A stretch of DNA of 37,925 nt from Alkalibacillus salilacus (GTDB lineage: Bacteria > Bacillota > Bacilli > Bacillales > Alkalibacillaceae), in the NCBI RefSeq assembly GCF_030812915.1, contig NZ_JAUSTQ010000017.1, positions 1-37,925 on the forward strand, read 5' to 3'. Under the pieces are notes generated by a model, which saw only the letters and a program-made list of their open reading frames with translations, did no database searches and had not been told where the DNA came from. Position numbers and translations under genes: made by a program. Below, piece by piece: positions 4,202 to 33,170 of this stretch; the stretch's first letter is position 1; each line of letters begins with the position of its first letter.

Positions 4202-4202
4202 G

Positions 4203-8159: not shown

Positions 8160-8320
8160 GTCATGCGCCTTTTACAACCTATCTATTACTCTACCGTCAC
8201 ACGCTTCACTAAGTTACTTGGGACTTCCACGCTGATTTAAAATAATCGTTAGTTGAATGACCCCTAACCCCCCCTTACTTCCTATTTCCTAATAAAAACA
8301 CCGTTTTTATATCTCTACTA

Positions 8321-8614
8321 TGTGAATTCACAATAAACTCGTAACACTTTTCACCCCTTCAACCTGCTTTCCACCGTCGCCTTTCATAATAAAGTCGTAA
8401 CACAACCCCCGATTTTTACCGATTTTGTTTCAAAAATAGTGTCATGACTTTATTCACACACACAATAAACTCGTAACACAAAAACGCCTGAGAAACGCAG
8501 GACATCAACCTTTTATCCCTTATCTCTCAGACGTCTATTCTAACTTTATTCTCACGAATTAGCCGATTTGTTATGACTTTTTTATAAATGTTACGACTTT
8601 ATTGTTGGGTTACA
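8321..8614. mobile_element. Mini Tn7-like element 2 (294 bp)
   Basis: The left end is TGTGAATTCACAATAAACTC and the right end read inward is TGTAACCCAACAATAAAGTC. Internal sites include ATAATAAAGTCGTAACAC (about 8385), TCATGACTTTATTC (about 8442) and ACAATAAACTCGTAACAC (about 8462). Near the right end is TTATGACTTTTTTATAAATG. A minus-strand terminator stem lies between the end arrays. It is 56 bp longer than element 1 because it keeps one extra left-end segment. Confidence 0.7.
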
Positions 8615-8619
8615 TTTTC

Positions 8620-8913
8620 TGTGCATTCACAATAAACTCGTAACACTTTCCACCCCTTCAACCCGCTTTCCACCGTCGCCTTTCATAATAAAGTCGTAAC
8701 ACAAACCCCGATTTTTACCGATTTTGTTTCAAAAAATGTGTCATGACTTTATTCACACACACAATAAACTCGTAACACAAAAACGCCTGAGAAACGCAGG
8801 ACATCAACCTTTTATCCCTTATCTCTCAGACGTCTGTTTCAACTTTATTCTCACGAATTAGCCGATTTGTTATGACTTTTTTATAAATGTTACAACTTTA
8901 TTGTTGGGTTACA
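8620..8913. mobile_element. Mini Tn7-like element 3 (294 bp, tandem with element 2)
   Basis: It has the same structure and length as element 2, starting TGTGCATTCACAATAAACTC and ending in TTTATTGTTGGGTTACA. It is separated from element 2 by exactly five bases (TTTTC, 8615-8619), the length of a Tn7-type target duplication. The right flank TAGTAG is the same as that of element 1. Confidence 0.7.
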
Positions 8914-9028
8914 TAGTAGAAAAAAGGGGATTAGGAGAACAGGAGTAAATACGTCATTTAAGGTTCTCAAGATAAACCTTCACGCATTATCTTTTAAGGA
9001 AAAAATCCTACTTACACCAGATCCTCTA

Positions 9029-11864: not shown

Positions 11865-13376
11865 TTATATCATTATTTCATTCATTGTTTTCTGGATCAG
11901 ACGCTTCACTTCTTGCTCACCACCAAACCCTATATGACGTCTAACTTTATATACCGATATCGACAACCCATTAGCCTTCATGTCATTAATAGCCCATTTT
12001 ATTTTTCGTTTACGATAATGTTCAAGGTCTTCAGTAAGTTGAGTTAGGTGTTCTTGAGTCTTAACCAGCTTAGGACTTCGAACAGAATGGCGATTTAGCC
12101 CAACCTCCTGAAATACTCTATTTGGTGTTACTCGTTCAGGCTTTCCAGCTTTATTCATCAAAGCCTTTTCACCTTGTATGATTAATTTTAGGTAATAATC
12201 GTCCTTTTCCTGCCAGTCAATTGATTCGGACCTTGTTCCTCGCCTCTGTTGTCTCGGAGTCACTTGATCATACCATGCAAAATCATGCTTACAAATCCAA
12301 GTATGTAAACCTTTTGCTTTCTCTTTTAGTTCAAGACGGTTAGCGCCAGGGTTCGCCTCTATTAGATTTAACCACTCCCGCTTTCTTTGCTCCATAGAAA
12401 ATTTGGGTTCGTGGTAGTGGGTGGATGATGAGCGCCCTTGAACTGATCCTGTTTCAAACAGATTATGAACAGATAATTTAAGAAATTGGTGAATCAAAAG
12501 ATGTCTTAAAGGGCTTTTATGTTTATAATTATTTCGAAAAAATCGACCCAGCCACCCAGCACCGTCTTTTTCATCAATTGAACTTTGCATTATGTCGAGG
12601 TAATCAGCAGCAAAGTAATCCATAAATGCTTCAGCAAATTCTTTCATATAGATATTGCCATTTGATGAAGCAAACCCTTTTTGACGTAATTGATCAACAT
12701 AATAGTTAACAATAAACGAAGATGGTTTTCTTTCAGGTGTTGCGTTCAACAATGATTCAGCATACCTCACATACTCTAAGTTCAATCGCGTCCATTTATT
12801 CGAAAACCAAGCATTGTCGATTTCTTCATTAAGACTCTCTTCATTTGGGACTACATAACTCAAGCGCCCATCATGCATTATGACTGAGCTTCTTTTATAA
12901 AAGACTTTATGTTTAGGACAAATAAAAACTCCAGGTAGCTGCGGTAATCTACGCCAGTAACTTTCTCCGAGCGTGTTGTAATCATCATGGACACAAGTCG
13001 GGCAATACTTCAAAAATTGACTGGGTTTAATCCCACTCGCCGTAATTCCTACCATATTCTCGATATTAGTTCGTGAACCCTTTTTCATTGCCTCTAAAAC
13101 TTGCTTTGCTTTTTCATCAGACAAATATGCTGTGTAAAATGGATACAATGTATGATTTTGAATTAACTCATCGCTTGTGATTTTTGAGTTAGGCGGTAAA
13201 TTGGCACACAATCCATCAATATCAATTGGGAGAAAGGCGGATTTTGTCATTCGTTTCTGACCAAACACATGATATTCTAATGATTTAACACTCCTGATAC
13301 CACTACGCATCCTGTATCGACTTATAGCACTAACTAAAAGCTCATCATCATAAAAAGTAGGGATGAAATTCATCAT
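11865..13376 (-). CDS. tnsD: TnsD/TniQ target-selection protein, 503 aa
   Basis: The N-terminal half is a TniQ domain. It starts FIPTFYDDELLVSAISRYRM and holds a CCCH zinc finger (CPTCVHDD near residue 120, then PGVFICPKHK). The long C-terminal part, with several basic helical blocks, fits TnsD, which binds a specific attachment site, rather than the short TniQ of CRISPR-linked elements. The start overlaps the tnsC stop by 4 bp (ATGA). In Tn7, TnsD recruits TnsC to the end of glmS. Here the target is unknown, because no recognisable attachment gene adjoins an end. Confidence 0.9.
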   Translation of the reverse strand: MMNFIPTFYDDELLVSAISRYRMRSGIRSVKSLEYHVFGQKRMTKSAFLPIDIDGLCANLPPNSKITSDELIQNHTLYPFYTAYLSDEKAKQVLEAMKKGSRTNIENMVGITASGIKPSQFLKYCPTCVHDDYNTLGESYWRRLPQLPGVFICPKHKVFYKRSSVIMHDGRLSYVVPNEESLNEEIDNAWFSNKWTRLNLEYVRYAESLLNATPERKPSSFIVNYYVDQLRQKGFASSNGNIYMKEFAEAFMDYFAADYLDIMQSSIDEKDGAGWLGRFFRNNYKHKSPLRHLLIHQFLKLSVHNLFETGSVQGRSSSTHYHEPKFSMEQRKREWLNLIEANPGANRLELKEKAKGLHTWICKHDFAWYDQVTPRQQRRGTRSESIDWQEKDDYYLKLIIQGEKALMNKAGKPERVTPNRVFQEVGLNRHSVRSPKLVKTQEHLTQLTEDLEHYRKRKIKWAINDMKANGLSISVYKVRRHIGFGGEQEVKRLIQKTMNEIMI

Positions 13377-14866
13377 AGACTTTCACCAGCCTTTACCCAA
13401 TACGTCATATCATCTATTAAGCCATGCTGTTTCAAAACATCATACGGATCTTGGTTTGGTTCAGACTTTAATAATCGTCTTATATCGTTATCAACAGATA
13501 CTTCATTTTGATGTCGTTGTGTTGCTAACACTTTCGAGTTCTCATGTGGCTTATCATTCGATTCTTCATTTGTTGATGATGTTTTCTTCTTAACACTATC
13601 AATCTGTCTATTTGATGGTTTCGATGACCTCAAATCATCCTTAACTTGTTCTTGATGCATAATGTCTTCATACTTCGCAATTTTATGAGGGTTACCAGAC
13701 TCAATAGCATCGAGCATTGGCTTTAATGATTTAAACCGTTTTTGCGCTACTTTTTTAATCAGTTCCGGTGTTATAAATTCCTTACCTGTTTCAATAGCAT
13801 ATTGTTGAACATAGATAAACAACTTAACCATCAAATCAGAAATACCCTGAGTTTGTTTATAAAACATCACTGAGATATCATCTTCGAGCGGTGTGAATTC
13901 TTTAGTCCATTGAAATGACCACATTGATTCCAATAAAAATCTAAACTCATCACCATATTCCATATTATTATAGATAATCTCGTGGTTAGCAGTTAAGCGT
14001 CTGGCAATCCTTAATTCGCCTTCAAATAAACGATATGCACCAGGTGTACCAACTAAAACGACATTAATGCCTGAATTAATCAGGTTAACGAAGAAGTTAA
14101 GGATTTGTGTTGCTCCGCGATTTCTAACGTTTTGAATTTCATCTATAACGAGAACACCCAATCCAACATTGTGTGCCAACTGAGCCATCACAGGCATTAA
14201 TGAGTCGACTGAGGAATTACGTGACACGTATGTTTTATAGTTATCAGTGCCTAATATTTCATCGATTTTAGTGAAAAATTGCAGGCACAACGCTTTTAAA
14301 CTTGAGTTGGATGGAGCATCTAATTTCAACCAAACCAGTTGTATTTGACTGAAATGAACGCCTTGATATTCGTTATGAACAATGACTTGAGGTAGGTGTT
14401 TGAGCACTTGATACACTGATGTTGTTTTCCCCATCCCTGAAAAGCCAATAAGTGTTCCCGAATTAGCAGTTGATTGATACTTGGAATTATCGTATACAGG
14501 TTTAGACTGATTGATAATGCTATTACCTGATTCAGTTAAGTAAGCAACATAGTCTTTATCAAAAGGGTTCCTTGATACATAACCCTCCATAATTAATCTA
14601 TTAAGCATATTCCATATTTCAATGTGGATTGGCATTGGCTGAAAAAAATGATTCAGTCTTTGAATCATAAATTGGCGATATGTTGAATTGAGTTTCCTCT
14701 CTTCCTGATCAAAATCGGGAAAATGCGTTAATGCTTGTATAATCTCCGCCTTACTCTTAGGATAAGGTAAGGCTTGAATGAAGGGATTATTATTGAACTC
14801 ATTTAATGGTGATTCATGGTATTCAGCTTCAACAGCTTCAGTGCCGTTTTCTAAATATATCTTCAT
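13373..14866 (-). CDS. tnsC: TnsC AAA+ regulator of transposition, 497 aa
   Basis: The Walker A motif GFSGMGKTT lies near residue 142 and Walker B GVLVIDEIQN near 240. A sensor-like segment VVLVGTPGAYRLF follows, as in TnsC/TniB ATPases. The C-terminal 100 residues are polar and probably disordered, with a short tail that may contact TniQ. TnsC forms ATP-dependent filaments on target DNA, links TnsD to TnsB and mediates target immunity. The ATG overlaps the last base of the tnsB stop (TAATG), with AGGAGG just upstream, so the two are translationally coupled. Confidence 0.92.
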   Translation of the reverse strand: MKIYLENGTEAVEAEYHESPLNEFNNNPFIQALPYPKSKAEIIQALTHFPDFDQEERKLNSTYRQFMIQRLNHFFQPMPIHIEIWNMLNRLIMEGYVSRNPFDKDYVAYLTESGNSIINQSKPVYDNSKYQSTANSGTLIGFSGMGKTTSVYQVLKHLPQVIVHNEYQGVHFSQIQLVWLKLDAPSNSSLKALCLQFFTKIDEILGTDNYKTYVSRNSSVDSLMPVMAQLAHNVGLGVLVIDEIQNVRNRGATQILNFFVNLINSGINVVLVGTPGAYRLFEGELRIARRLTANHEIIYNNMEYGDEFRFLLESMWSFQWTKEFTPLEDDISVMFYKQTQGISDLMVKLFIYVQQYAIETGKEFITPELIKKVAQKRFKSLKPMLDAIESGNPHKIAKYEDIMHQEQVKDDLRSSKPSNRQIDSVKKKTSSTNEESNDKPHENSKVLATQRHQNEVSVDNDIRRLLKSEPNQDPYDVLKQHGLIDDMTYWVKAGESL

Positions 14867-16971
14867 TATTCCTCCTCCTGTCTTAGACGTTTAAACAATT
14901 CTAAATCGGTCTCATCTTCAACACTTGATACTCCTCGGTCACTCTCTGGTTCTGTATGTCTATTATTCTTGCGATTGAGTTCTCTTTCAAAGCGGCGATT
15001 TTCTTGTATGTCATTCACTTTTTGTGATTTCGATACTTCTTCATTGAGTTCTTTCGATGTTTTCCCTGCCCCATCACGAACAATTTCCTCAATCTGATCC
15101 AACAATTGCATTTTAGCTTGTAGCTCATCTTCTTTTGCTGATTTATCCTTTTCATTTTCGGCTTGTAGCATCACATTCACCTCATCAATGCTCTTACTTT
15201 TATATTTTTCTAAATGATCTACTAACGAAAAGGTGATAAATGATTGTTCCTCTCTATTAAATATAAAAATGTGCGTTAGGTCAGTTGGATCGTACCAGAT
15301 TTTTTCTTTCCAAGTCTTATCTCGTGCCTGTTGAAACCAGTTTTGTTGCAAACCATACGATGAAACATAAAACATTTTCTTAAACTTAATCCCTTTTGCT
15401 GTAACCGTAGCTTCTGTTGTTGGTAACAAATGCATCTTAATAACGTCAGACGGAAGTTTTCTGATAGTGCCTTTTACATGACTAACCCCATATTGCCAAA
15501 TATCCATCGGTATTTTTTTGACACCTTGATTCATCATATCTTCACTTAATTCGTAATCGCTCATGAGATGGTGATTATTGTAAAAGATAATGCAACGAAT
15601 AAGGATCTTAGTTAAATCATGAACCGTAAGATTCGCATATAGACGATAATCCTTTTCGCCCCTTTCTTTAACACGATTACCACTTACGACAGCACCATCA
15701 ACATGAGGTGTAATACGTTGCATCATTTGATGAAAGGCTTGTTCAATTATTGCTTTTGTTTCTGGTCGATAGCCGGGGCTGTTTTGTATAGAAATGCCTA
15801 AATTAGTAATGGCATTCTCAATCTGCTTACCGCTTAACTCACCCCTATCAGTAAAAATCCTTTGAGGAACGCAATCAATATCCCATTCGCCTTCCAATTC
15901 AATGCCGAATCGCTTACAAAACTCATCTTTAGGTGTCATCGAATTATAAAGAGCATTCATGGCACCACTATACGCATTTAACGACTCGAAGCTTAAACTA
16001 AAACCTACAATCACACGTGAATAAACATCAATCACTAAATGAAGCAATGGTTTGCCCACAATTGCATTGCGATCAACACTTGATACACAATAAACATCTA
16101 ATGGTGTTGAATCCGTTTGCCATAGGTTGCCTGGCCCAAAACCAGCATCTTGCGTTGAATCACCAACTATTGGACGATATTGTTGGTAGTAGACTCTTGA
16201 CCCAAAACGCTTGGATATCTCATGCTTGGGATCGTTATATTTTTTGAACCAATATCGAAATTGATTGTATGTTGGTATTTCATTCTTAACAACTCTACTT
16301 TCTTGACCATATGAATCCTTGATAACCTCAGTAAAAAAATCTCGAATAGTTAACTCATAAGCTGTCATCAGGGTGTTTTGTTTATCCGTATAATAATGTC
16401 GATTTAACCCAGCCTTAATCTTCTTTTTAACTGTTTCATCTATATTAACTCCCTTTTTACCGTTAGAGCGCGGTCGACCCCTCTTGATGTTGCTATGTTT
16501 TCTTTCATGACCAGGCATTCCACATTTGAAATAATCGGGCAAAAGTGCATTCAATGTCATCCCACGCTGCCAATACTTAATCAGATACTTTTTGACAGTG
16601 CTATAACCAACGCCAAATCTTTCGTTCGTTTGCTTAATAGCTTTCTGTCGGTATTTCGAATCATAAATACGGTGTTCATCTACTTGACTGATAGTATATT
16701 GAACAATTTCCCACGCGTGATCACGCTTCGCCTTCTGTTTTGATGTTATTTGGCTATCGTCAACCGCAATCGTAAAGTAATCCTCTTTTATGATTTCTAA
16801 GTTACTCTGAGCGTATTGATGTTTTACTTCAGATTGATTTAAGACATATGGCAGTCGCTGAGAATGAAGTTCAATAACAATAAGTGTTTTATCAAAATGA
16901 TTGACATCAAGAACCCTCCATACTTCTCCGTCTTTATTCCGAAAGATCATATTTTGGTAATAATTCAACAT
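14866..16971 (-). CDS. tnsB: TnsB DDE transposase, 701 aa
   Basis: The protein has an N-terminal beta-barrel-like and helix-turn-helix region (YSTVKKYLIKYWQRG), then the RNase H catalytic core. The catalytic triad is visible: Asp in LWQTDSTPLDVYCV (about residue 287), Asp in RIFTDRGELSG (about 373) and Glu in ETKAIIEQAF (about 409). A C-terminal Mu-type barrel and an acidic, lysine-rich tail that would bind TnsC follow. TnsB binds repeated sites in the transposon ends and joins the 3' ends to target DNA. The ATG at 16971 is preferred over an upstream GTG because of AAGGG spacing. It lies 8 bp after the tnsA stop. Confidence 0.92.
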   Translation of the reverse strand: MLNYYQNMIFRNKDGEVWRVLDVNHFDKTLIVIELHSQRLPYVLNQSEVKHQYAQSNLEIIKEDYFTIAVDDSQITSKQKAKRDHAWEIVQYTISQVDEHRIYDSKYRQKAIKQTNERFGVGYSTVKKYLIKYWQRGMTLNALLPDYFKCGMPGHERKHSNIKRGRPRSNGKKGVNIDETVKKKIKAGLNRHYYTDKQNTLMTAYELTIRDFFTEVIKDSYGQESRVVKNEIPTYNQFRYWFKKYNDPKHEISKRFGSRVYYQQYRPIVGDSTQDAGFGPGNLWQTDSTPLDVYCVSSVDRNAIVGKPLLHLVIDVYSRVIVGFSLSFESLNAYSGAMNALYNSMTPKDEFCKRFGIELEGEWDIDCVPQRIFTDRGELSGKQIENAITNLGISIQNSPGYRPETKAIIEQAFHQMMQRITPHVDGAVVSGNRVKERGEKDYRLYANLTVHDLTKILIRCIIFYNNHHLMSDYELSEDMMNQGVKKIPMDIWQYGVSHVKGTIRKLPSDVIKMHLLPTTEATVTAKGIKFKKMFYVSSYGLQQNWFQQARDKTWKEKIWYDPTDLTHIFIFNREEQSFITFSLVDHLEKYKSKSIDEVNVMLQAENEKDKSAKEDELQAKMQLLDQIEEIVRDGAGKTSKELNEEVSKSQKVNDIQENRRFERELNRKNNRHTEPESDRGVSSVEDETDLELFKRLRQEEE

Positions 16972-16979
16972 AATCACCC

Positions 16980-17789
16980 TTATTTTATTAATGAAATAAG
17001 TGGTTGATTTAATTTAATAGGTTCTGTTAAATCAACTGTTAGCTTATGTGTTGCAATCAGATAGCGAAACAAGAATAAGCCTGTTCCATATGAAATTGAT
17101 TCACGTTCTTCAAATTCTGTTAAAAGAACATCTACATTTCGTTCAGATTTAAGGTACAAATGATCTAAAAGATGATCTGCATGTTCAAGATAATCCAACT
17201 CATCATGTTGATATAATAGCGTCTCCCTTATCCATTCAATATTTTGGGTTAACTTTTTAGGTAGTTGTTTATTTGTTATCACCTTCCAATCAACACCTTT
17301 TGCTTCCCAATAAAGGCGTTCAATCTCAAGCTTTTCCCAAGTTAACTTCCGCTTTAATTCCGAAGCATTTTTTACTGTTCTCGCAACATGACGAACATCA
17401 CCTTTTTCATCTTTAACTGTTAGAAGAAAGTTGGTTGTAATAACATATTGTTCCCCTGTTTCTTTATCTCGAAATTTCTCAAAACGAAGGTCGTCTTTTT
17501 GATCAATCGTTTCATCTATGTCCAATAAGGGATATGACTCTCTGATATCAATGACGTTTATGTTAAACTCAAACATCAAAAACGCACGATATTGGTTATC
17601 AGACTGAAAATGATGAATTCGATTTGTCTTTACACCTAAGATTCGCGTTGCTCGCCCTTTAGATGAAAACTCATGTGTGTACATTTTTGTCCAAGGCATA
17701 TAGTCACTTCCTGTACCTTGTCCTCGACCTTCTTTGATGAACCGTTTAGTCTCGTTTGAGTATTTTCGATTTGAATCTTTTTGTGTCAA
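16980..17789 (-). CDS. tnsA: TnsA-type endonuclease subunit with altered catalytic residue
   Basis: The TTG at 17789 follows GGAGGTG at six bases and gives 269 aa starting MTQKDSNRK. A longer frame to 17840 would run into the terminator hairpin. The N-terminus aligns with Tn7 TnsA (IKEGRGQGTGSDYMPWTKMY versus IKEGRGQGHGKDYIPW). Catalytic Glu is kept in LMFEFNINVIDIRE. The position of Tn7 Asp114 (STDFLV) is Asn here (TTNFLL, codon AAC at 17430-17432), and Gln130 is Thr in ARTVK, while Lys132 is kept. The C-terminal winged-helix part (LEIERLYWEAKGVDWKV) is complete. In Tn7 an Ala at Asp114 blocks 5'-strand cutting and gives cointegrates, so this enzyme may lack cutting activity. Confidence 0.88.
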   Translation of the reverse strand: MTQKDSNRKYSNETKRFIKEGRGQGTGSDYMPWTKMYTHEFSSKGRATRILGVKTNRIHHFQSDNQYRAFLMFEFNINVIDIRESYPLLDIDETIDQKDDLRFEKFRDKETGEQYVITTNFLLTVKDEKGDVRHVARTVKNASELKRKLTWEKLEIERLYWEAKGVDWKVITNKQLPKKLTQNIEWIRETLLYQHDELDYLEHADHLLDHLYLKSERNVDVLLTEFEERESISYGTGLFLFRYLIATHKLTVDLTEPIKLNQPLISLIK

Positions 17790-17820
17790 AATCAACACCT
17801 CCAAAATAGGCAAAATAAAA

Positions 17821-17880
17821 ACTGCATTTCTTATAGGCAAAATACCTCGTTTTTTTTTGAGGTCCTAAAAGAAATGCAGT
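17821..17880 (-). terminator. Long hairpin between resolvase and tnsA
   Basis: ACTGCATTTCTT (17821-17832) pairs with AAGAAATGCAGT (17869-17880), with an inner ACCTC/GAGGT stem. On the minus strand it is followed by TTTTTATTTT, so it should terminate resolvase transcripts. The direct repeat ATAGGCAAAATA at 17806-17817 and 17833-17844 (27-bp period) overlaps it and could be an operator for tns expression. Confidence 0.7.
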
Positions 17881-17895: not shown

Positions 17896-18513
17896 TTATT
17901 GAGTTGTTTCAATTTGTTTCTCATCCTCCATTTCTTTAACTTTTCGATAAAATGATGATTTTGAAATACCTAAATTTCTAAAGGATTGAGCAGCCGTTTG
18001 CTTGCCTGACACCCATTTTTGATACTCTCGTTTGAACTTGTCGTCCACTTCAATTGGTGGCCTTCCAAATTGAATCCCTTTTATTTTTGCCGTTTCAATG
18101 CCTTCTCGTTGTCTTTCTTTTATGCTCTCACGTTCGAGCTCGTACAACGCACCAAAGATTGTACAGATAAATCGACCTTGGACAGTTGATGTATCAATTT
18201 GTTCTTTCAAACTAATCACTTCGACTCCTGATTCAGTTAGGTTGTTAACGATTTCGAGGAAGTCTTTTGTGTTGCGTGCTAATCTCGATATCGATTCAAC
18301 GACAACCGTATCACCTTCTCGGACAAAATCGATCATTTCATTTAATTGATCACGATTTCTGTTTCGGCCACTCACTTTCTCAATGTAATACTTATCAATC
18401 TCTACTTTTTCTAAAAGTTGTTTTTGACGATCGACACTTTGACTCTCCGATGAAACACGGATGTATCCAATTCGAATAATAACCACTCCAATCAGAATAT
18501 GTGTTCTATTCAA
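17896..18513 (-). CDS. Serine resolvase/invertase family recombinase, up to 205 aa
   Basis: The resolvase fold is clear: IGYIRVSSESQSVDRQKQLL with the catalytic Ser in the first VSS, then DTVVVESISRLARNTKDFLE, RFICTIFGALYELERESI and a C-terminal Hin-type helix-turn-helix (QTAAQSFRNLGISKSSFYRK). The length is that of TnpR/TniR resolvases, not of large serine integrases. The start is uncertain. TTG 18513 and GTG 18486 are in frame, while a GGAGTGG ribosome site at 18483-18489 would suit an ATT codon near 18477. In Tn402/Tn5053 elements TniR resolves cointegrates. Its position beside tnsA suggests the same work here. Confidence 0.88.
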   Translation of the reverse strand: MNRTHILIGVVIIRIGYIRVSSESQSVDRQKQLLEKVEIDKYYIEKVSGRNRNRDQLNEMIDFVREGDTVVVESISRLARNTKDFLEIVNNLTESGVEVISLKEQIDTSTVQGRFICTIFGALYELERESIKERQREGIETAKIKGIQFGRPPIEVDDKFKREYQKWVSGKQTAAQSFRNLGISKSSFYRKVKEMEDEKQIETTQ

Positions 18514-18800: not shown

Positions 18801-19094
18801 TTATGCTGCATCTGTTTGCTTCCTAAAATGTGCGTTAGTCAGCTTAATTACATGCGATTTCAGATTTTCTAAATCATCATCATGTTGACTGTCGAGTTGT
18901 TCTAAATAATGTTTCAATTCATTAAGCTTTTTGTATTTCACTTTCATATTTTGCGTCGTCAATGCTCGAGTAGCACACCTTAAAACGCTAACCGCATGCT
19001 TAATCAACGTCACATCATTGTATGATTTTAATACGTACTCAGTTAAATCAACGCTACGCTCATATAAAGCAGCTTCTCGAAAATCATAGTTCAT
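18801..19094 (-). CDS. 97-aa helical protein, probably a divergent four-helix-bundle relative
   Basis: This is the last gene of the three-gene unit. The sequence starts MNYDFREAALYERSVDLTEY and contains LIKHAVSVLRCATRALTTQN. The order of motifs (D-x-R/K-x-A-x-Y-x-R, then a helix ending in an R-A-T core) parallels the neighbouring Avd/S23-type protein, so it may be a shortened homologue. It is all helical by eye, slightly basic and without signal or membrane helix. The start ATG is preceded by GAGGAGGGAG-type purines. Fifteen bases separate it from the upstream gene, so co-translation is likely. Confidence 0.6.
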   Translation of the reverse strand: MNYDFREAALYERSVDLTEYVLKSYNDVTLIKHAVSVLRCATRALTTQNMKVKYKKLNELKHYLEQLDSQHDDDLENLKSHVIKLTNAHFRKQTDAA

Positions 19095-19109: not shown

Positions 19110-19466
19110 TTATGACTCAGACAACTTTTTGATAAGCGCTGTTAGCATTCTTCTTATCTCCCAAAGTGCCTGATCAAATTCTTCAAACGAATCGTTGGAT
19201 ACATAATGGAGTCTACTACTTAAATGAAGTAAAGCTTGTACTTCGCACGCGCTTCCTACTGCGATATCATAAAAGTCCTTTTCTTTTTTAGGGTATTGGA
19301 CGCCATTCCCCTCTGCGATATTTGCAACAATAGAGGTGGAAGCCCGTCTAATTTGGTCAATCAGGTTGTATTTCTGTTTAGCCGGAAATGTATCAAGCGT
19401 TGCTTCTACTGCTACACATAAGTCTTCTGCTTTCTGATAAACTTTCAAATCTCGTGCATCTTTCAA
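19110..19466 (-). CDS. Four-helix-bundle protein of the Avd / 23S-rRNA-insertion (S23) family, 118 aa
   Basis: The family pattern is unmistakable: DLKVYQKAEDLCVAVEATLD, then YNLIDQIRRASTSIVANIAEG-NG, then KEKDFYDIAVGSACEVQALL and a final EIRRMLTALIKKL helix. Members form pentamers with a basic central pore. Avd binds nucleic acid in diversity-generating retroelements, and others are encoded in 23S rRNA insertions. No reverse transcriptase or variable/template repeat is present here, so this is not a classical retroelement. The neighbour on one side is a 214-aa unknown, and on the other a shorter likely relative. Upstream lies a large structured non-coding region that could be its RNA partner (inference). 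Confidence 0.88.
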   Translation of the reverse strand: MKDARDLKVYQKAEDLCVAVEATLDTFPAKQKYNLIDQIRRASTSIVANIAEGNGVQYPKKEKDFYDIAVGSACEVQALLHLSSRLHYVSNDSFEEFDQALWEIRRMLTALIKKLSES

Positions 19467-19489: not shown

Positions 19490-20134
19490 TTAAATCTCTT
19501 CTTGCAATACCCCGTAATGCGGTCGCACGTTAATGAAAGTCTTCATCTCTCTATCGCTATGGATGGAACTGAGTGTTGCAACTTTACCTGAGGAAGGTTT
19601 CTTAGTGTTCAGTTCAGGACTATTAAAAGACAAGTCTGTTCTGCGTTTGAAAAAATTAACGACTTTAGGATCATCCGGTAAATAATAAGCCACCACAACT
19701 GTTACTGCATACTCTTCATAGAATTCATTCAATAGATCAATTAATGAAGGAGAAAGCTGATCTAACGTTAAGTCTAAAATTAACCAATCAATCGATTCAC
19801 CCTCTATATGACGTTCCAAACGTTTAAGAATTCCCTTTGAATCAAATGATGTTAAATCGATATACTGCACATCTTTCAACACTGATATAGGATTATCCGC
19901 TTTACCTAAAAACTGGTGTCTTGATTGCGAGAATCGATCAATTTCCCTTGCCTCTTTTTTGGGAGAACCTAAATATATACCCATATCTTCTGCTTCCAAT
20001 TCGGAAATCAATTGAGATATTAGGATGTTTTTGAATTGAACGTCATTATAAGAAACAAACTCAAATGAATCTTGGCACATTTCTCTAAATATTGGGAGAT
20101 TACTAACATCGCTTTCCAGTAAATCTGTCAACAT
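19490..20134 (-). CDS. Unknown 214-aa protein heading the four-helix-bundle operon
   Basis: I do not recognise the family. The ATG follows GAGGTGA at 7 nt. The middle region has alternating strands and helices (MGIYLGSPKK, VQYIDLTSF, SIDWLILDLTLDQLSPSLID, AVTVVVAYYLPDD) like a RecA- or Rossmann-type fold, but there is no P-loop, so ATP hydrolysis is not supported. A degenerate ATPase of a RecA/DnaB or ParA-like type is one possibility. The C-terminus is short and polar. It stands 23 bp upstream of the Avd-like gene and directly downstream of the structured non-coding region, with no terminator between. Confidence 0.65.
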   Translation of the reverse strand: MLTDLLESDVSNLPIFREMCQDSFEFVSYNDVQFKNILISQLISELEAEDMGIYLGSPKKEAREIDRFSQSRHQFLGKADNPISVLKDVQYIDLTSFDSKGILKRLERHIEGESIDWLILDLTLDQLSPSLIDLLNEFYEEYAVTVVVAYYLPDDPKVVNFFKRRTDLSFNSPELNTKKPSSGKVATLSSIHSDREMKTFINVRPHYGVLQEEI

Positions 20135-20149
20135 AATCTGTCACCTCAT

Positions 20150-21398
20150 TTTTATTATTAGTTTGGTTTAATTAACCTGCCTGAGTAATATAAAGATATC
20201 TTATAGACAAACCGTCAACAACAGGTATTGTGTTCGAGGGTGTTTAACCTAACCCTTAACGTTTGAATGGCACTGAATAGATAATAAATCTATCTTTCAA
20301 TTAAAGAGGCCTCAAACGTCTACTATCAATTTAAACTAATATTTGTTTATACAAAACAGATTATACGTCGGACCCTGTTTGACGTTATTGCCTTCATTAT
20401 CAATAAACCGTTTCACCATAATTAACCCTCTTACCCAAGAGGATGCCACCAAACCTTTTGATATCATCAATTACGTTATCCATTGCTCAACATGTTATAA
20501 AAATATAACTGCTAACCGTTAATAGGATTGTAGATAAGAAGTTAACCCTTGGTCACTATTTAAACAACCCTTGACGATGGATATCACACGCTATTCTGAG
20601 GGATATTAATGTAATCCCGTAAAGACCGTTTAATTGAAAGACCATATGACATGGGCATAAACTCGTAATTATATATTTATATACAAGGGAGATGATATAA
20701 TACGAGTTTGTCGCTATATTCATATGGTTAAATGGCAATATAAATAACATGATATTAATGGTGTCCTATAACATCACCATATGAAATTGAATAACATGTC
20801 ATATATGGAGTGATATCAACAACGCCAGATGTTCAAACTATCATAGTTAGATGTTCCATCTTCACGTTGTTGATTTATTGAAAACTGCTTACCAATATTG
20901 AAAAAGGGGTTTACGAGCAAATGAATCCATCACATTAAAATTTGGTTGATGCCAACCCGCCATTTGCTCAATATTTTTACCATTACCGTATGTTCTCGGA
21001 ACACCACCACATCAGTTTTTTTGGAGTTGACGATTCACTATATTCAGCAATATATGATGTGGTGTATTAATATGAGCAACAAGAAAATCACCACTATCAT
21101 GATGGAAGATGCCACTAACCTGTTGCTCATTGTTAGCAAACCTATCCATTAACTTTATTCAACCGTTGCAAATGGTTATATAGTTTATGACTTATGACCA
21201 TATGTATCTCACCATATCATTTGCTCTGGTGTGATAGATTCCATTTAATGTATAGTGCTTACCCATAGATTGTTTGACACATAACTCAATACACTGCCAC
21301 TCAATTTTCAATAAACAGTCAATACGATATCAATGTTGTAGTGCACTACGTTATAAGTCGCTTTAAACGTTGACCATAACAAATGCGAGCTATACAAA
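20150..21398. ncRNA. Candidate large structured non-coding RNA (about 1.25 kb)
   Basis: No supported gene exists here, yet long inverted repeats are dense. Arm pairs include 20641-20649/20720-20728, 20659-20667/20701-20709 (nested, continuing into TTATAT/ATATAA with one bulge), 20815-20824/20865-20874, 20915-20923/20961-20969, 21005-21014/21055-21064, 21072-21081/21121-21130 and 21168-21174/21218-21224. Local hairpins include CCTCTT/AAGAGG at 20427-20442, ATAGAT/ATCTAT at 20277-20293, and a 12-bp palindrome GTAGTGCACTAC at 21338. TGGCATC and GAGCAAATG recur. The strand is unsettled: one stem extends by G-U on plus, another on minus. A minus-strand terminator at 21399-21429 and no terminator before the 20134 gene favour minus-strand transcription into the operon. 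An origin or partition region is the alternative. Confidence 0.6.
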
Positions 21399-21429
21399 CA
21401 AAAAAGCAACCCTTATTCCAGGATTGCTG
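21399..21429 (-). terminator. Minus-strand terminator upstream of the structured region
   Basis: AGCAATCC pairs with GGGTTGCT on the minus strand (one G-U) and is followed by TTTTTTGTTTG. It insulates the structured region from the restriction operon side. Confidence 0.7.
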
Positions 21430-21585: not shown

Positions 21586-21620
21586 AAAAAGATAGTTCCA
21601 ACACATCATGCTGGAACTAC
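21586..21620 (-). terminator. Terminator of the restriction-modification operon
   Basis: TAGTTCCA (21594-21601) pairs with TGGAACTA (21613-21620), and six T follow on the minus strand. It lies 33 bp after the last gene of the operon. Confidence 0.8.
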
Positions 21621-21652
21621 CTCTTGGCGTAAGCATTAAATCCATTTTTAAA

Positions 21653-22387
21653 CTACAATTCTCTCACAACTTCTTCATCTAATATCACTTTACGTTTCTC
21701 CCAATCTGGCATCAGAGCGTACAACATTTGATAAAATTGATCGCTATGATCGTTGTATTTAAAGTGAATCAATTCATGTAACACCACATACTCGATACAA
21801 TGTTTGGGTGCCTTAATCAATTCAACATTTAATAAGATGGTTTCTGAATCCTTTAAACACGATCCCCAACGGGCTCTCATCGTTCTAATCTGAATAGTTG
21901 GTTTCGGGACCTCATACTTTTCAAGCTTGGAGTAAGCTTTGTCCAATGCTTCTTGAAAAATAACACGAGCTCGCTTGCGATACCATTCCGTCATTAAAGC
22001 TTCTTTCTTCTCATATTGATCGGGGTCTGTCACATAAAGATAAAGAAAGCCTCGTAAATATTTTACGTGTTCATCTTCTTTTTGTTGAACCTTCTTGACG
22101 CGTAATCGATATTGTTTACCTAAATACTTATATGACTCCCCACTTACATATTCACGTTCACTTTTTTTCTCTGGTTGCACCTTTTCAAACTTCCCAAGAT
22201 GTTTAAGAATCCACGATGCTTTTTTCTGCACAAACCTTTGTATAAAATCAAGCGGAACATCCTGGTGAGCTGATACAACGACGGTCATATTGGGTTTAAT
22301 ATTTAAATTGACATGCTTTACATTTTTTCGTTCAATTTCATATTGGATGATGTGACTGCCGTATTCTAATTGATGTTGTTCTGTCAT
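21653..22387 (-). CDS. YgjP-like M48-family metallopeptidase of the hsd operon, 244 aa
   Basis: The C-terminal half carries the zinc motif HELIHFKYNDHSDQFYQML (HExxH with a downstream His), preceded by IRTMRARWGSCLKDSETILLN, the WGSC segment typical of the YgjP/DUF45 group. The N-terminal half is the family's beta-rich domain (VKHVNLNIKPNMTVVVSAH). Genes of this family are often the last gene of type I restriction operons, with no settled role. Here it begins 10 bp after the hsdR stop, after GGGTGAG, and is co-directional with it. Confidence 0.88.
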   Translation of the reverse strand: MTEQHQLEYGSHIIQYEIERKNVKHVNLNIKPNMTVVVSAHQDVPLDFIQRFVQKKASWILKHLGKFEKVQPEKKSEREYVSGESYKYLGKQYRLRVKKVQQKEDEHVKYLRGFLYLYVTDPDQYEKKEALMTEWYRKRARVIFQEALDKAYSKLEKYEVPKPTIQIRTMRARWGSCLKDSETILLNVELIKAPKHCIEYVVLHELIHFKYNDHSDQFYQMLYALMPDWEKRKVILDEEVVREL

Positions 22388-22397
22388 ATACTCACCC

Positions 22398-25300
22398 TTA
22401 ATATCGTCTTAGTGCAACAGTCTTAATGTGTTCAATCAATTTATCAATTTGATCATAATTCAGGTTCAAGGCATGTTGATCCACAAAATCACACAACAAA
22501 TCATCTAATTCCTGTTCAATCCCATTGTGTACATCTTGATTGTCGTGCCAATCCACCTTAGTCAGTTCATCAATAATTTGATCTATATCTAAAGCTAATT
22601 CACCAACAATTTCGTATGATGCAGACGGTTCCTTAACTTCATCAAAAAAGTCTTTTGCTATTCCATAAAAGGCTTGTGCATTGCCTTTTCCTTTAATATT
22701 ATCCGGATATTGATCTTCAGAAGCCCCTCTTCGGTATTCTTCTTTCATCTCATTCATGCGCTGCCAGTATTCTGCTTCACTGATCCGTTTTTCTTTGTAA
22801 TCTTCTAATGTTTCTTGGATTCGTTCTGAAAACTTTTTATAGTAAGCGGGGTTTTCATCCCATTTTTGATGGATACTTCTTGTTAACCTTGTTCGAATGG
22901 CATCGGCTTTCGCTCGTTTAGAGCCTAATCGGTTCATTTCTTCTTCAAAGCCTTCGCGATCTAAAATATCAACTGGTTTTGTAATTTGCATCATCTCTTC
23001 TGACGATATATATTGATCCATTAGTTTCTGCATTTTCGCTTCATACTCTTTATGATCAATGGAATCAGAGTAACGAAGTTTTACACTTTTCCTTAATTCC
23101 TGTAAAAATCTTAAGTCATTCTTATATTTATCTAACTCTTCAGCACCTAAACTGTTATATATTTGCTCCGATTCTAATGCAATTCCGACGTTTCTCCCGA
23201 ATTGACTTAATATATCATAAAAGTCATCTCGTAACTCCTCATCCGCTAACAATACCTCATATTCCTCGGTATCTTGCTTATTTTTCACAGGTGCGAATAG
23301 TTGCCATAAATCTGAGTAATGTTGACGTAATTCGCCCACAACTGAAACAACATCATGTAAAGCACCTTTTAAATCCTCAGGGTCAAAATTTTCAAGCCCA
23401 GCTCCTGAGTACATTTCCATTGCTTCATCTAACTTATCCAATAAACCTCGATAATCAACAATCACACCAAAGTCTTTTCCTTCATAAAGACGATTGACGC
23501 GGGCAATGGCTTGTAAAAGTGTATGTTCTTTCATTAACTTATCAACATATAAAACAGTCGCCTTCGGGGCATCGAACCCTGTTAAAAGCTTGTCTACCAC
23601 AATTAATATGTCTATGTCATCGCCATTCACAAATTCGTCCTTGATAGTATCTTCATATCTGTCTGGTGTTTGGTATTTATCCATCATTCGTTGCCAAAAG
23701 CGTTGAATACGATCTTTTGAAGCAACATCTACAGCTTCATGCCCTTCTCTTTCATCAGGTGGAGAAATCACAACCGCACAATTTAAATCACCTAATTCTT
23801 CAAATGCTTCTAAATAACGAATAGCTTCAATTTTACTATTCGTCGCCAACATTGCCTTAAAGTTGGAACCTTGCGTTTTATAGTTATCCATAAAATGATT
23901 ATTAATATCAAAGGCAATCATACTCAGTCGCTGATCCGATGATGCGATTCGCTCAAAAGTACTCCACTTTTTCATCACTTGATCCTTTTGCTCGTCATTC
24001 AAGTGACGCGTAATCATATCTAACTTATGATCAATCGCTTTTTGGTTAACGGTTTGTTCGACCATTCTCCCTTCATATAGGAGTGGCAAAATCGCTTTAT
24101 CTTCAACACCATCAGCAATCGTATATTGGTGAATCAATTTTCCGAAACGTATCATCGTATTTTTCTCTTTTTTCATGAGTGGTGTTCCTGTGAAACCTAA
24201 GTAGCTGGCATTCGGAAATACTTTTTTCATCTTTAGGTTCAGTTCACCATACTGTGTTCGATGACTTTCATCCACCAACACAAATATGTCTTTTGATGTA
24301 ATCGGTTCTTGATCTTTCGAGACCTTATCAAATTTATGGACGAGAGTCGTCACGACATCAGCATTGTTGTCATTGATTAAATCGATTAAATGATTACTTG
24401 TTGTTGCTCGTGTCGCTTTCAGTCTCGTATGGTTAAAAGTTCGGTGAATTTGTTTATCTAAATCAACACGGTCTGTTACGACGACAACTTTCGGGTTTGT
24501 ATTCCAAAGCTCTGATAAAATATATTTAGCCAACATGACCATCGTTAACGATTTCCCTGATCCTTGTGTATGCCAGATCACACCACTTTGACGATTTCCG
24601 TTTTCATCACGTTCTTCAATGGTATTAATGATCTCTTTAATCGCAAAATATTGTTGATAACGAGCAATCTTCTTAACATCTTTATCAAACAACACAAAAT
24701 ATCTTGTAAGATCTAATAGTCTTTCAGGATGAAACAACGAAATAATGTTGCGATCTTGGGTTGTCGGCATACGATCGGATACCGTTTGATTCAGTTGCTT
24801 TTCTAACCATTTCGAATTTTGTTCTTTCCAAATCGACCAGAATTTTTGTGGCGTATTGCAAGTCGCATATTGCGTTTCATTTTTATTCGTTGCCATCACG
24901 ATTTGAACAAACTTAAAAAGCTGTGGAACATAGTCTTTGCCTTGATTTCGTATCATTTGGCTAACACCTTGTGCCATCGATACGGAGGCTTTCTTACATT
25001 CAATCACCGAAAACGGAATCCCATTCACAAACAGCACGATATCTGGGCGAACTGTCCCCTTCCCATCTTGACGTTCAACGGTGAACTCTTCCACCACATG
25101 AAAATCATTATTTTCAAAGTGCTCCCAATCAATGAACTGGAGAGAAAATGATTTCTTCGATCCATCAGGTAAATTCTCCGTATAACTTCTCCCTAACATG
25201 AGTGATTCATAGATTTTTTCATTAGTCTTCACTAAGCCGTCCGTTAACGACTCATCTAAGTCACGAATCGCCTGCTCCACATTGCCGTCACTAAACGCAT

Positions 25301-25496: not shown

Positions 25497-25545
25497 CCAA
25501 TCACCTCCGTAATAGTAGATTAAGAAGAAAGGAAGGAAGGAAGTA

Positions 25546-29174: not shown

Positions 29175-30917
29175 TTATTGTCTAAACACAATATGATGAT
29201 GTTCCGGTTCAATACCATGTTGAGACATAAAGTATTGTAAGTCTTTTAAATACTTACTCAAATTCGAATTATCTTGAAGACCCAAGTTGTCTCTAAGTTC
29301 TTTTTTGGTAACTTGCGTGCGACCTTCTTTTTTGCATTGTAATAGATAGTCTCTAATACAATTTCTCCAATTTCTTTGTCTACCAGACTCCGTCTCTTTT
29401 TGATTTGTCTTAGGTTTAAAAGCATAATCATACCTATTAATTCCAGGTAACTCGCTCTCGATCATGTCAACTGCCTGTGAATTATCTGTAAATAATACAT
29501 ATTGAGCAGGTAATTGATTATCACGGTTAATACGTTTCAATGCTTGATAAAACTCACCCGCAATCATTGTTAAACGAATTGGTTCAACCCTTTCGTCGTT
29601 AAACATTGATATCGAGTCATCATGCTGTTCATTGTCATCAAAGAAATGCGATTGTAAAACATAATCAATATAATCAAAATTCGGTGTTTTTAAAATGACA
29701 ACCTTATCAAACATCTGATACGTGTTGACCCCAATAATATTACCGAAATAATCAATCGACACAACTTTGTCTATAAGCATCTCAGGATCTTTTAATGGTG
29801 AAATAGCACTTAGATGCCCAATTAAGCTCTCTCTTAAATCGTCAAAGTTATTTTTATCAGTAATAAATAACGTTCTTTGCTTTAGATCAATAGGCTCTTT
29901 TTCTAACACCTGATAATAAAAATTTACATAATTCGATAATGATTCCTTACTGGTCTTCACATCATAATGTATTAAGGATGAATTCGAATAATTATATTTT
30001 TTAGGTTGCTCTTTAACTTGGAATAGCGACGATAAGTTATAGCGGGCATCCAATCCCCCGTTAGCATCGAGTATAATATTATTATCTAACATTTTATATG
30101 CTACGTTATCATTAAACGTATGAAACGCTTGATTATTATAAAAACACCCGTTTTTCAACACAAATAATATTCTCTCTACAATACTTGCATCTTCACTCTT
30201 CTTATAGGTTGATAAAAAGTCTTCTAAATCATCAACCATATTGCCATTCGATACCTCATGGCTATAATAAGGAACATTTTGAATGTAATACGGATCTTTT
30301 TCAAACCTGTGCAATTGATCGCGTAATTCACGCGCCAGCATTTCAATTAATTCACTATTTATAAATTTGTGAGAATTGCTCCAAAGCCATTGAATATCAC
30401 TCATTTCAACTTTTATACGATCTAAAATATCAGGAAATTCATCTATGATTAAGATTTGTCGCCCAGAGATGATATCTTCATGTTCACTATAACAAACTTG
30501 CTCATACATCCGATGCGTGATTACTAATATCTGAGACTTTAACTTCTCCCTTCGCCGCTTTTTGGAACCTTTATTATCTTGGGAATCCAAGTAAGCTGCT
30601 ACTTCACATTTAGCATATTCATTTATTCTATCAACTGTCGACTGTAATTCACCGTCGCGCGAAAACTTCTGTACATATAGAACAGAATCATCTCTTTTTT
30701 GCGTATATAAACCTAATAGTAATTGTGTGATTCGACTTTTTCCTGTTCCAGCCTCATAATTAAAAACCTCAAAATGTTGATTGCTCCACATTTCCTTGTA
30801 TCTGATTTTGTCTAATAAGTCTTTGAAATTTTCTTCAATTTGTTTAGCTCCTTCAACAGAACTAAGATTATTATTGACGTCGGTTTGACGTTTTTCTATC
30901 ACAGGACTCTCAGTCAC
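29175..30917 (-). CDS. Helicase-like P-loop ATPase, 580 aa
   Basis: The GTG at 30917 follows GGAGGT at six bases and is preferred over in-frame ATGs further up. Walker A is in VFNYEAGTGKSRITQLLLG (near residue 55), a motif-Ia-like block is in DSVLYVQKF, and Walker B is ILIIDEFPDI (near 160). Motifs of a second RecA domain are weak (TLFITDKNNFDDLRESL; later a QALKRINRDN block resembling motif VI). The last 70 residues look like a winged helix (KKELRDNLGLQDNSNLSKYLKDLQ). It may be a replication or defence helicase. I cannot name a family. Its own promoter lies upstream, and ParM/ParR genes lie nearby. Confidence 0.65.
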   Translation of the reverse strand: MTESPVIEKRQTDVNNNLSSVEGAKQIEENFKDLLDKIRYKEMWSNQHFEVFNYEAGTGKSRITQLLLGLYTQKRDDSVLYVQKFSRDGELQSTVDRINEYAKCEVAAYLDSQDNKGSKKRRREKLKSQILVITHRMYEQVCYSEHEDIISGRQILIIDEFPDILDRIKVEMSDIQWLWSNSHKFINSELIEMLARELRDQLHRFEKDPYYIQNVPYYSHEVSNGNMVDDLEDFLSTYKKSEDASIVERILFVLKNGCFYNNQAFHTFNDNVAYKMLDNNIILDANGGLDARYNLSSLFQVKEQPKKYNYSNSSLIHYDVKTSKESLSNYVNFYYQVLEKEPIDLKQRTLFITDKNNFDDLRESLIGHLSAISPLKDPEMLIDKVVSIDYFGNIIGVNTYQMFDKVVILKTPNFDYIDYVLQSHFFDDNEQHDDSISMFNDERVEPIRLTMIAGEFYQALKRINRDNQLPAQYVLFTDNSQAVDMIESELPGINRYDYAFKPKTNQKETESGRQRNWRNCIRDYLLQCKKEGRTQVTKKELRDNLGLQDNSNLSKYLKDLQYFMSQHGIEPEHHHIVFRQ

Positions 30918-30977
30918 GTTATTACCTCCATAAGTGCATAATACTCTATTTAAATTGCCTAATATCTTACTCATCAT

Positions 30978-31076: not shown

Positions 31077-31102
31077 AACCAACTACAAAATGTAGTTGGT
31101 TA
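31077..31102 (-). terminator. Terminator of the XRE regulator gene
   Basis: AACCAACTACA pairs with TGTAGTTGGTT around AAA(A), and seven T follow on the minus strand. The stop codon of the regulator lies in the first arm. Confidence 0.85.
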
Positions 31103-31786: not shown

Positions 31787-31918
31787 ATTATCCCCTCCTA
31801 TTATTATGAATTTATAAGAACGTCAAACAATCTCCCGCAAAAAATTATGAAAAATTATTATAAATCAGCTTTGCCAAGTCTATTATACATTAAATCATAT
31901 ATTAAAGGAGTTGATAAA

Positions 31919-32911
31919 ATGAAACCAAACGCACTAATAGGTGTCGATTCAGGTAAATACGCCACAAAAGGCATCTTAGAGGTGAATGGTACACAGTATG
32001 TAACATCATTTCGCACCAAAATACAAGCTATCGATGGTATGGGGATTGATTTACAGCCAGGTTCATTCCATGTTAAGCACAACGGTCAAGAATATTTAAT
32101 AGGTAATATGGTGTCTGAATCGATGATGGACAGTAACCTGAATAAGCACCTGAATATTCATCGAATCGCCATTTATACTGCTGTCATAGCCCTTTTTCAA
32201 AAAGCTAATCTTAATCCAGATGACTTCGATATTCATTTAGCCGCGAACGTCCCTGTAAACATGTATAAAGACAAGAATAGCAAAGAATCATACCAGTCTT
32301 ATATCAAACAAAAAAGTTATCCAGTGAGTATTCGAGTCAACGATATCCCTCAGATGTTTAGCATCAAAAGTGTTACCGTTGCTTTTGAAGGAGTTGGCAT
32401 GATATATAATAACCCCGAACAATTCACCAATGCTTCTTCAACCATCATCGATATCGGCGGGCTTAATACAAATTATTGCTCATTTTCAGGATTACAACCT
32501 GATTTTAATTCAATGATTGTAAACCAATTGGGCATCAACCATTTGAAATCTGACATCGAATCGGAGTTAAAGAGAAAATATAACTTAAACGTGTCAGCTA
32601 ATGATCTTGAACAAATCATAAAGGAAGGTTTTCTTATTCACTTTGGCGAGGTGCAACAAGAAAGTTCAGATCTGATCAAACAGTTCAAGCAAAACCATCT
32701 CGATAAAATCATTAGTTATGCACAAATAAATGGGTACACTTTCAACAACACAACCATCTACTTTATCGGTGGGGGCTCGAACCTTTTAAAAGGTGAAATT
32801 CAAGATAGGTTTGCAAATGCCTACGTGGTAGAAAACCCACAGTTTGCAAACCTTCAGAGCTTCATCTCGATTTTAAAGGTGAAAACTGGACATGACAAAC
32901 AAGTATCCTAA
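31919..32911 (+). CDS. parM: ParM/actin-like plasmid segregation ATPase, 330 aa
   Basis: The ATG at 31919 follows AAAGGAG. Actin-fold motifs are present: phosphate-1 GVDSGKYATKG at residues 8-18, phosphate-2 TIIDIGGLNTNYC near 180, and the adenosine motif FIGGGSNLL near 285. Length fits the ParM/AlfA-type group. Such proteins form ATP-dependent filaments that push plasmid copies apart through a DNA-bound ParR. The next gene overlaps its end by 20 bp and encodes the expected small DNA-binding partner. This strongly implies a low-copy plasmid or a plasmid-derived island. Confidence 0.85.
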   Translation: MKPNALIGVDSGKYATKGILEVNGTQYVTSFRTKIQAIDGMGIDLQPGSFHVKHNGQEYLIGNMVSESMMDSNLNKHLNIHRIAIYTAVIALFQKANLNPDDFDIHLAANVPVNMYKDKNSKESYQSYIKQKSYPVSIRVNDIPQMFSIKSVTVAFEGVGMIYNNPEQFTNASSTIIDIGGLNTNYCSFSGLQPDFNSMIVNQLGINHLKSDIESELKRKYNLNVSANDLEQIIKEGFLIHFGEVQQESSDLIKQFKQNHLDKIISYAQINGYTFNNTTIYFIGGGSNLLKGEIQDRFANAYVVENPQFANLQSFISILKVKTGHDKQVS

Positions 32912-33170
32912 AGCAACCATAAGCTTTCCGCCACGTGATTCAGACGTTTGGGAACACTTACAATCTATTAAAGCAGAGCATAATGTTAGTGACTATATTA
33001 GATCACTCATACGACAGGACATGGAAGGGCAAGGCTGTATGGATGAACAAAAGATTATCAACCAAGTGCTTCAGGCTCTCCAAGTGAATCAACAAGCCGA
33101 GTCACAGTCTGATGTTGAAAGGACACTCGTACACGATGAGACAAAGCACACAATTGATAACTTGTTTTAA
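32892..33170 (+). CDS. parR: ParR-like adaptor protein, 92 aa
   Basis: Residues 7-45 fit a ribbon-helix-helix domain (KATISFPPRDSDVWEHLQSI, then NVSDYIRSLIRQDM). The C-terminal half is polar and flexible (QVNQQAESQSDVERT), as in ParR proteins that contact the filament end with their C-terminus. It overlaps the parM-like gene by 20 bp, so expression is coupled. Its centromere should lie upstream of parM, in 31787-31918, where AT-rich short repeats occur. Confidence 0.75.
   Translation: MTNKYPKATISFPPRDSDVWEHLQSIKAEHNVSDYIRSLIRQDMEGQGCMDEQKIINQVLQALQVNQQAESQSDVERTLVHDETKHTIDNLF

Follow-up and report, generated by a model that had tools for sequence, protein, structure and literature searches.

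A possible cis-acting DNA control region built of inverted-repeat units in a plasmid-like Tn7 element of Alkalibacillus salilacus

Analysis of a window comprising bases 1-37925 of one contig of the 2.73 Mb Alkalibacillus salilacus genome (30 contigs) identified an array of inverted-repeat units in a structured non-coding region (20135..21404, minus strand; defined by arm counts, folding and a frame scan) located beside or within a Tn7-like element that has plasmid-type genes. We favour reading this array as a cis-acting control region in the DNA of a plasmid-like Tn7 element rather than as an ornate RNA, and give the DNA explanation about an even chance of being right. Speaking for DNA are a preferred band of arm spacing, invariant arms in relatives, arms that are the best conserved part of the units, a core of the transposon-end repeats within the array, a switch of the strand that folds best and the lack of a promoter excess. 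Speaking against it are the absence of a single over-represented k-mer in the window array, the folding of units 1 and 4 on the gene strand, the absence of sequence homology of the array to the corresponding gaps, uneven gaps and the abundance of arms at other spacings in other non-coding DNA.

On the minus strand, towards lower coordinates, the window encodes p600, an HsdS-like protein, HsdM, HsdS, HsdR and a YgjP-type metallopeptidase, followed by the non-coding stretch and then by a 214-aa orphan, an S23/Avd-type protein, a 97-aa orphan, a small serine resolvase (17896..18513, minus strand; profile scan) and TnsA, TnsB, TnsC and TnsD (11865..17840, minus strand; profile scan), the last four genes together placing the element among the Tn7-like transposons. 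Its left-end region (8321..8914, plus strand) contains 22-bp repeats around ATAAACTCGTAACA with the core ATAAACTCGTAA(CA), a 299-bp duplication and, by eye, a TGTG tip, and a related copy lies at about 5190-5415, while no right end was recognised in the window. Left-end sequences are duplicated further (3820-4221 versus 7115-7514, 5004-5755 versus 8134-9241, and within 8321-8914), several copies having TGTG tips and 22-bp repeats and one duplication, of 299 bp, being in tandem. The element thus shares with Tn7-like transposons of Bacillales (TnsABCD) the order TnsA, B, C, D/TniQ and left-end 22-bp repeats with a TGTG tip, but differs in adding an actin/ParR pair, a DinG-like helicase, S23/p97 and the internal inverted-repeat array.

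The plasmid-type genes include an actin-like ALP with a 92-aa ParR-type partner (31847..33170, plus strand; ALP_N match), that is, an actin-like ATPase with a small partner as in ParMRC-type segregation pairs. ALP and a ParR-like partner occurred together in at least 10 of the 26 sources scanned; besides the window, the pair was seen in L044, L046, L047, L048, L052, L054, L089, L093 and L096, so that Tn7-like elements of Bacillales carrying it look as if they were current or former plasmids. Gene p600 (29175..30977, minus strand) was assigned a DinG/XPD-like helicase fold from its structure model (pLDDT 78; best Foldseek match 6fwr, E 9.9e-11, TM 0.47). An HTH protein is encoded at 31100-31786. 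Because of the helicase and actin/ParR genes, we regard the element as plasmid-like. In the window p600 is 7.8 kb from the array, and the DNA between them includes a type I restriction-modification cassette (21653-28344). A related cassette is present in another S23-bearing Tn7 element (L094:10973-15846; YgjP 62% and HsdR 73% identical), and the cassette may therefore travel with these elements. No tRNA was found in the window.

Within the non-coding stretch the longest stop-to-stop frame has 75 codons. Between 20135 and 21652, eight pairs of perfectly complementary arms of 9 bp or more were counted (spacer 3-80; the pairs of the window have 9-10 bp), whereas 500 dinucleotide shuffles gave 0.85 on average and never more than 4. 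Their arms start at 20641/20720, 20659/20701, 20674/20738, 20719/20776, 20815/20865, 20915/20961, 21005/21055 and 21072/21121, and the pairs below 20790 overlap and are partly alternatives of one another. Complementary 7-, 8- and 9-mers at any distance also exceeded all 300 shuffles (8-mers 77.5 vs 37.7), and the statement in an earlier note on this DNA that the structure goes beyond chance is thus borne out. We describe the array as six units: unit 1 (21072..21130) with arms ATGAGCAACA/TGTTGCTCAT and a centre spacing of 49, unit 2 (21005..21064) with CACCACATCA/TGATGTGGTG and 50, unit 3 (20915..20969) with GAGCAAATG/CATTTGCTC and 46, unit 4 (20815..20874) with ATCAACAACG/CGTTGTTGAT and 50, unit 5 (20719..20785) with TTCATATGGT/ACCATATGAA and 57, for which 20641-20728 is an alternative pairing, and unit 6 (20657..20709), an inverted pair of AAACTCGTA with a centre spacing of 42, whose plus-strand copy is ATAAACTCGTAA.

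Short motifs recur, as the same note had pointed out: on the minus strand TGGCATC and CATATGG are each found three times and GAGCAA four times, and the number of 7-mers present at least three times is 21 against 8.0 expected (reached in 0 of 300 shuffles). The commonest single 7-mer and 8-mer on both strands were, however, matched in 37 and 30 of 200 shuffles, respectively, and units 1-5 have differing arms with no single over-represented k-mer, unlike the relatives L095 and L096. The DNA of the region had no match among plasmids and phages at E 1e-5 and matched only itself in its own genome. Among 149 relatives it gave matches in five genomes, one being its own; those in the other four (28-41 nt, E 4.6e-5 or worse) were taken as chance, and permissive searches with E up to 10 returned only matches of E 1 or worse. 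Outside the array, between the resolvase and tnsA, lies an inverted repeat with 12-bp arms (17821-17880), which may be an attenuator, yet has the spacing of the array (48 nt between centres).

The operon that follows the array starts with the 214-aa protein (p214; 19490..20134, minus strand), which takes the place of the RecA-like genes of L095 and L096. It is possibly a divergent RecA/KaiC-like protein without a P-loop, its homology to the L095 and L096 genes being unproven by sequence: identity to RecA-like proteins is 15-19%, a profile built without p214 did not find it (E 4.1), and its best match among the open reading frames is a 283-aa RecA-like protein of L048 (E 0.066). Its low-confidence model (pLDDT 54) matches FlaH, KaiC and DnaB-type folds, one of them with E <0.001. 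Scans of genome contigs, viral contigs and plasmids gave no homologues of p214, and in 397 genomes one weak match (E 1.7e-4) was obtained besides the protein itself.

The second gene encodes the S23/Avd-type four-helix-bundle protein of 118 aa (19110..19466, minus strand; PF05635, E 1e-31), which confirms the family named in the earlier note, and the arrangement partly recurs in related elements. With 109.7 bits against a curated cut-off of 33.8, it is a clear member of PF05635, the family of S23 or 23S rRNA-intervening-sequence proteins (IVP), to which it is compared here together with Avd. It differs from these known systems in standing beside Tn7 genes, in having the diverged partner p97 and in lacking a reverse transcriptase, none being present among the 30 window proteins scanned; its score against the Avd NCBIfam equivalog was 33.3 bits, under the cut-off of 80. 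The solved S23 relatives 2rld and 2gsc contain five chains each, and S23/Avd proteins form pentamers; a correspondence between five chains and five hairpins was discarded as numerology. In other loci S23-containing proteins of 355-366 aa were seen (L038/L051, 361 aa; L049, L092, L093, L094), the L038 protein having two S23 stretches by Pfam. The third gene, p97 (18801..19094, minus strand), is similar to the gene after S23 in L047 (blastp, 9e-6), L095 (2.8e-7) and L096 (0.001). A search of 397 genomes with p97 found only itself, and these relatives were later matched through neighbouring genes.

The linkage of S23 to Tn7-like genes extends beyond the window. TnsA relatives were found in 76 of the 397 genomes of the order and an S23 match in 26; 12 of the latter (own genome included) had it within 15 kb of TnsA and 16 had TnsA anywhere (hypergeometric P 8.5e-7, with a TnsA list covering 73 of the 76 genomes). 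Among 13 TnsA-selected loci, taken from the genome collection with a TnsA alignment, S23 homologues lay upstream of TnsA in ten (that of L057 is interrupted) and were not found in three, namely L050 and L058, with less than 4.1 kb of upstream DNA, and L054, with the full 10 kb. Six relatives have a gap in the place corresponding to the array, directly after p600. Genome G025 contributes two of these loci, L095 and L096; there p600 is followed by a long gap, then by a gene for a RecA-like protein (306 or 297 aa), S23 and a p97-like gene, with a second S23 between in L096; in L052, L053 and L056 the gap lies between p600 and S23, and in L054 it follows p600 and no S23 was found. Small open reading frames occur within several gaps (up to 182 aa in L052). 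The gaps of L095 and L096 are 67% identical over 879 nt, whereas the window array has no sequence homology to the other gaps, and their kinship therefore rests on place and geometry. Rfam at the gathering threshold gave nothing relevant in seven related loci. The gap of L052 also contains three 78-bp tandem repeats (L052:5586-5817) with short inner inverted arms seen by eye.

Counted in the same way (9 bp or more, spacer 3-80), arm pairs exceeded the shuffles clearly in three of the seven gaps, namely the window (8 vs 0.8 expected), L095 (10 vs 1.3) and L052 (4 vs 0.7), each count being reached in 0 of 100 shuffles. For the remaining gaps the counts were 4 vs 1.6 in L096 (reached in 9 of 100), 2 vs 0.8 in L053 (20 of 100), 1 vs 0.7 in L054 (49 of 100) and 1 vs 0.2 in L056 (18 of 100). 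By centre spacing, 16 pairs over the seven gaps fall at 44-52 nt against 0.61 expected, with 2 and 2 in the adjacent bands, although the band was picked after looking at the data and the 16 pairs are not independent, since there is homology between L095 and L096 and likewise among the AAAGTTGTA units described below. The window alone contributes 4 vs 0.09, L095 5 vs 0.2 and L096 3 vs 0.08 (all 0 of 100 shuffles), and at least one pair falls into the band in six of the seven gaps, the exception being L052, which has one at 42. A second rise at 89-97 nt (6 vs 0.77) is near twice the spacing. The seven gaps are those of loci with p600; L089, L092 and L093, which are without p600, were left out, and L093 has a pair in the band. 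In 51.9 kb of non-coding DNA from elsewhere in the window and related loci, the 44-52 nt band held 4 pairs vs 1.85 expected, and the excess lay at 12-23 nt (24 vs 4.1) and 53-61 nt (10 vs 2.6). Arms as such are thus common in these loci, while this spacing is not. Arms above shuffles in that other DNA, like the ordinary folding of 400-nt pieces of the array, would fit decayed intergenic DNA with accidental structure; as the arm counts of the array exceed all shuffles and corresponding gaps that lack sequence homology show the 44-52 nt spacing again, we regard such decay as very improbable.

The conservation of the units points to DNA sites. In L052, L053, L054, L056 and L095 (twice), a AAAGTTGTA unit, AAAAGTTGTA...TACAACTT, has arms that are invariant rather than covarying. 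Among 249 genomes of the order, no more than two, G025 and G049, contained its exact pattern, in each case within these gaps, while a reversed control pattern had one site, in G117; the AAAAGTTGTAT unit had no match in viral contigs. Between L095 and L096, a pair not homologous in sequence to the window, four units were compared, one of them an imperfect hairpin chosen by eye, and identity was 88% in the arms (88/100 columns), 62% in the loops (92/149) and 71% between units (165/233). In L095 the motif ATAGAAG occurs 11 times on both strands (mean shuffle maximum 5.2; reached in 0 of 200).

A further link to DNA binding comes from unit 6, where the 12-mer ATAAACTCGTAA at 20657 is identical to the core of the repeats at the end of the element and has an inverted AAACTCGTA partner at 20701. 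Of the 15 occurrences of the 9-bp core AAASTYGTA in the 37.9 kb, 11 are in the end regions and two are the pair 20659/20701. The array site was not among the matches to the full 22-bp end repeat with up to 6 mismatches. The variant AAAGTTGTAA, an arm of the relatives, is also present in the left end of the window, at 8890. The relatives' AAAGTTGTA units were considered as TnsB sites as well, which was not confirmed: no cluster of AAAGTTGTA sites was seen on the TnsD side of three elements, which come from two genomes, and the link to TnsB therefore comes only from the window.

The earlier note had likened the region to giant ornate RNAs of the GOLLD, ROOL or OLE type. In its RNA form, the proposal is a large structured minus-strand RNA starting at about 21380, in which hairpin modules of about 60 nt follow one another and to which S23/p97 would bind to give an undescribed RNA-protein system. 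Folding of the 1.25 kb gave z values of -7.75 (20 shuffles) and -5.5 (30 shuffles) on the minus strand, compared to -3.9 and -3.7 on the plus strand; for 20400-21400 with 60 shuffles they were -4.0 on the gene strand and -3.3 on the opposite one. Pieces of 400 nt of the array are ordinary (z -0.7 to -2.7; intergenic 400-nt pieces of related loci, mean -0.87, sd 1.64, 114 strand-pieces), and another stretch of the window, 2951-4201, with strong hairpins including a perfect one of 23 bp, reaches -6.3. Fold z was consequently dropped as proof of an RNA, and the arms rather than z are the robust signal. The single units are in part more favourable to RNA: on the minus strand, units 1 and 4 become hairpins with almost all bases paired, and they pair less fully on the plus strand (unit 1, -21.9 on the gene strand vs -14.5 kcal/mol on the other; unit 4, -22.0 vs -16.9 kcal/mol), whereas for units 2 and 6 the better fold is that of the strand opposite the genes. 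Likewise, GU-containing stems in the window favour the minus strand (4, expected 0.7) over the plus strand (1, expected 0.25), but the totals for the seven gaps are 12 for the gene strand and 10 for the opposite one. The strand preference is moreover reversed in L095 and L096, where the larger fold excess is on the opposite strand, and L052 and L053 have no clear fold excess (z between -1.5 and 0).

Comparison of L095 and L096 speaks for both sides. Of the 46 stem pairs of L095, 43 are kept in L096, with two double and two single changes and three pairs broken, whereas slid control versions keep 14 to 24 of 45 to 48; the stems come from the same four units, including the hairpin chosen by eye. 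This pair of relatives, not homologous in sequence to the window, is the one in which the covariation asked for in the earlier note could be followed, no homologue of the window region having been found. Against RNA, the loops are the least conserved part and the arms of the shared unit are invariant. Transcription signals do not favour it either, with 9 promoter-like sites in the stretch vs 10.8 expected. The terminator scan (2 found vs 0.8 expected) gave an intrinsic terminator upstream of the region (21405..21428, minus strand) and a weaker terminator-like hairpin within the array (20944-20957), and none between the array and the 214-aa gene; a hairpin at 21587-21625 followed by T's is a terminator by eye and absent from the scan list. 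Rfam, the check the note had proposed, returned no family at the gathering score on the window and, with E up to 10, three other families at E 3 or worse, in agreement with the note's failure to match a known large RNA.

GOLLD, ROOL and OLE likewise consist of hundreds of nucleotides of consecutive paired domains (background on ornate RNAs in PMC5643018), and PMC12286853 places GOLLD and ROOL in mobile DNA too. The array differs in that no covariance model matches it, that its relatives have invariant arms, that the favoured strand varies and that the window has no tRNA. With the varying strand preference, the lack of a promoter excess, the poorly conserved loops, the invariant arms and the end-repeat core, the idea of a giant ornate RNA is not supported, and the array is not to be classed with GOLLD, ROOL or OLE. 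As the window has no single over-represented arm motif and two of its units fold better on the gene strand, and as S23 relatives include Avd of diversity-generating retroelements, an RNA keeps some plausibility; overall we judge it less probable than the DNA explanation, yet a serious rival. A more elaborate version, in which a modular RNA of about 1.2 kb would dock S23/p97 oligomers and the RecA-like protein on its 60-nt hairpins and serve as a replication or target choice machine of a plasmid-like Tn7 family, appears unlikely to us.

Within the preferred DNA explanation, two subtypes can be distinguished, and the weight given to them overlaps with that given to the explanation as a whole. 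In one, the element would replicate from the array, whose DNA would open beside p600, the DinG-like helicase; this would agree with the position of the gap beside p600 in six relatives and with the segregation genes on the element. The earlier note had named a match to a known plasmid origin built of inverted repeats as counter-evidence to its own reading; for an origin of iteron type the evidence is negative: direct repeats of at least 9 nt in the stretch are not above shuffles (7-mers are), and one DnaA box was found, with 1 mismatch to the DnaA consensus. The G+C content of 31-36% is little under that of the flanking genes, p600 is DinG-like by fold and not a known initiator, and its distance in the window is against this subtype too, which we consider improbable. 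Alternatively, the units could be regulatory only, as paired operators around promoters of the p214-S23-p97 operon. The region directly precedes this operon, and several AAAGTTGTA units have, by eye, a box resembling TATAAT or TATATA between their arms, but 1.25 kb with about six units exceeds the need of a promoter and promoter-like sites are not above shuffles; this purely regulatory role seems to us no more probable than the origin. Iteron and parS/parC-type plasmid control sites resemble the array as repeated sites in plasmid-like DNA beside maintenance genes, whereas the units here are inverted pairs with a preferred spacing and not direct iterons.

Read as a cis-acting DNA region, the array consists of inverted sites in pairs, and in several pairs the centres are about 50 bp (about five helical turns) apart. 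It stands before the 214-aa/S23/97-aa operon in the window, and the corresponding gap of six relatives directly follows p600. An element-encoded protein, as a dimer or higher oligomer, would bind each pair, and the pair 20659/20701 may bind TnsB because of its transposon-end repeat core. Through such binding the array might start or control the replication of the element, or regulate the operons on either side.

Among the literature matches listed (titles and abstract openings, with few subscription journals covered), none dealt with S23 together with Tn7 or with this array; 23S rRNA IVP is named in a figure legend on CRISPR-linked proteins (PMC10910872). The S23/IVP proteins are widespread and, to our knowledge, without known function. 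Their linkage to Tn7-like elements, together with a defined nucleic-acid array, offers a concrete substrate for them. The inverted-repeat spacing of about 50 nt provides a searchable signature for a Tn7 family that apparently carries plasmid-maintenance genes, and through the site of the array that shares the transposon-end core, transposition could be linked to the replication or expression of the element.
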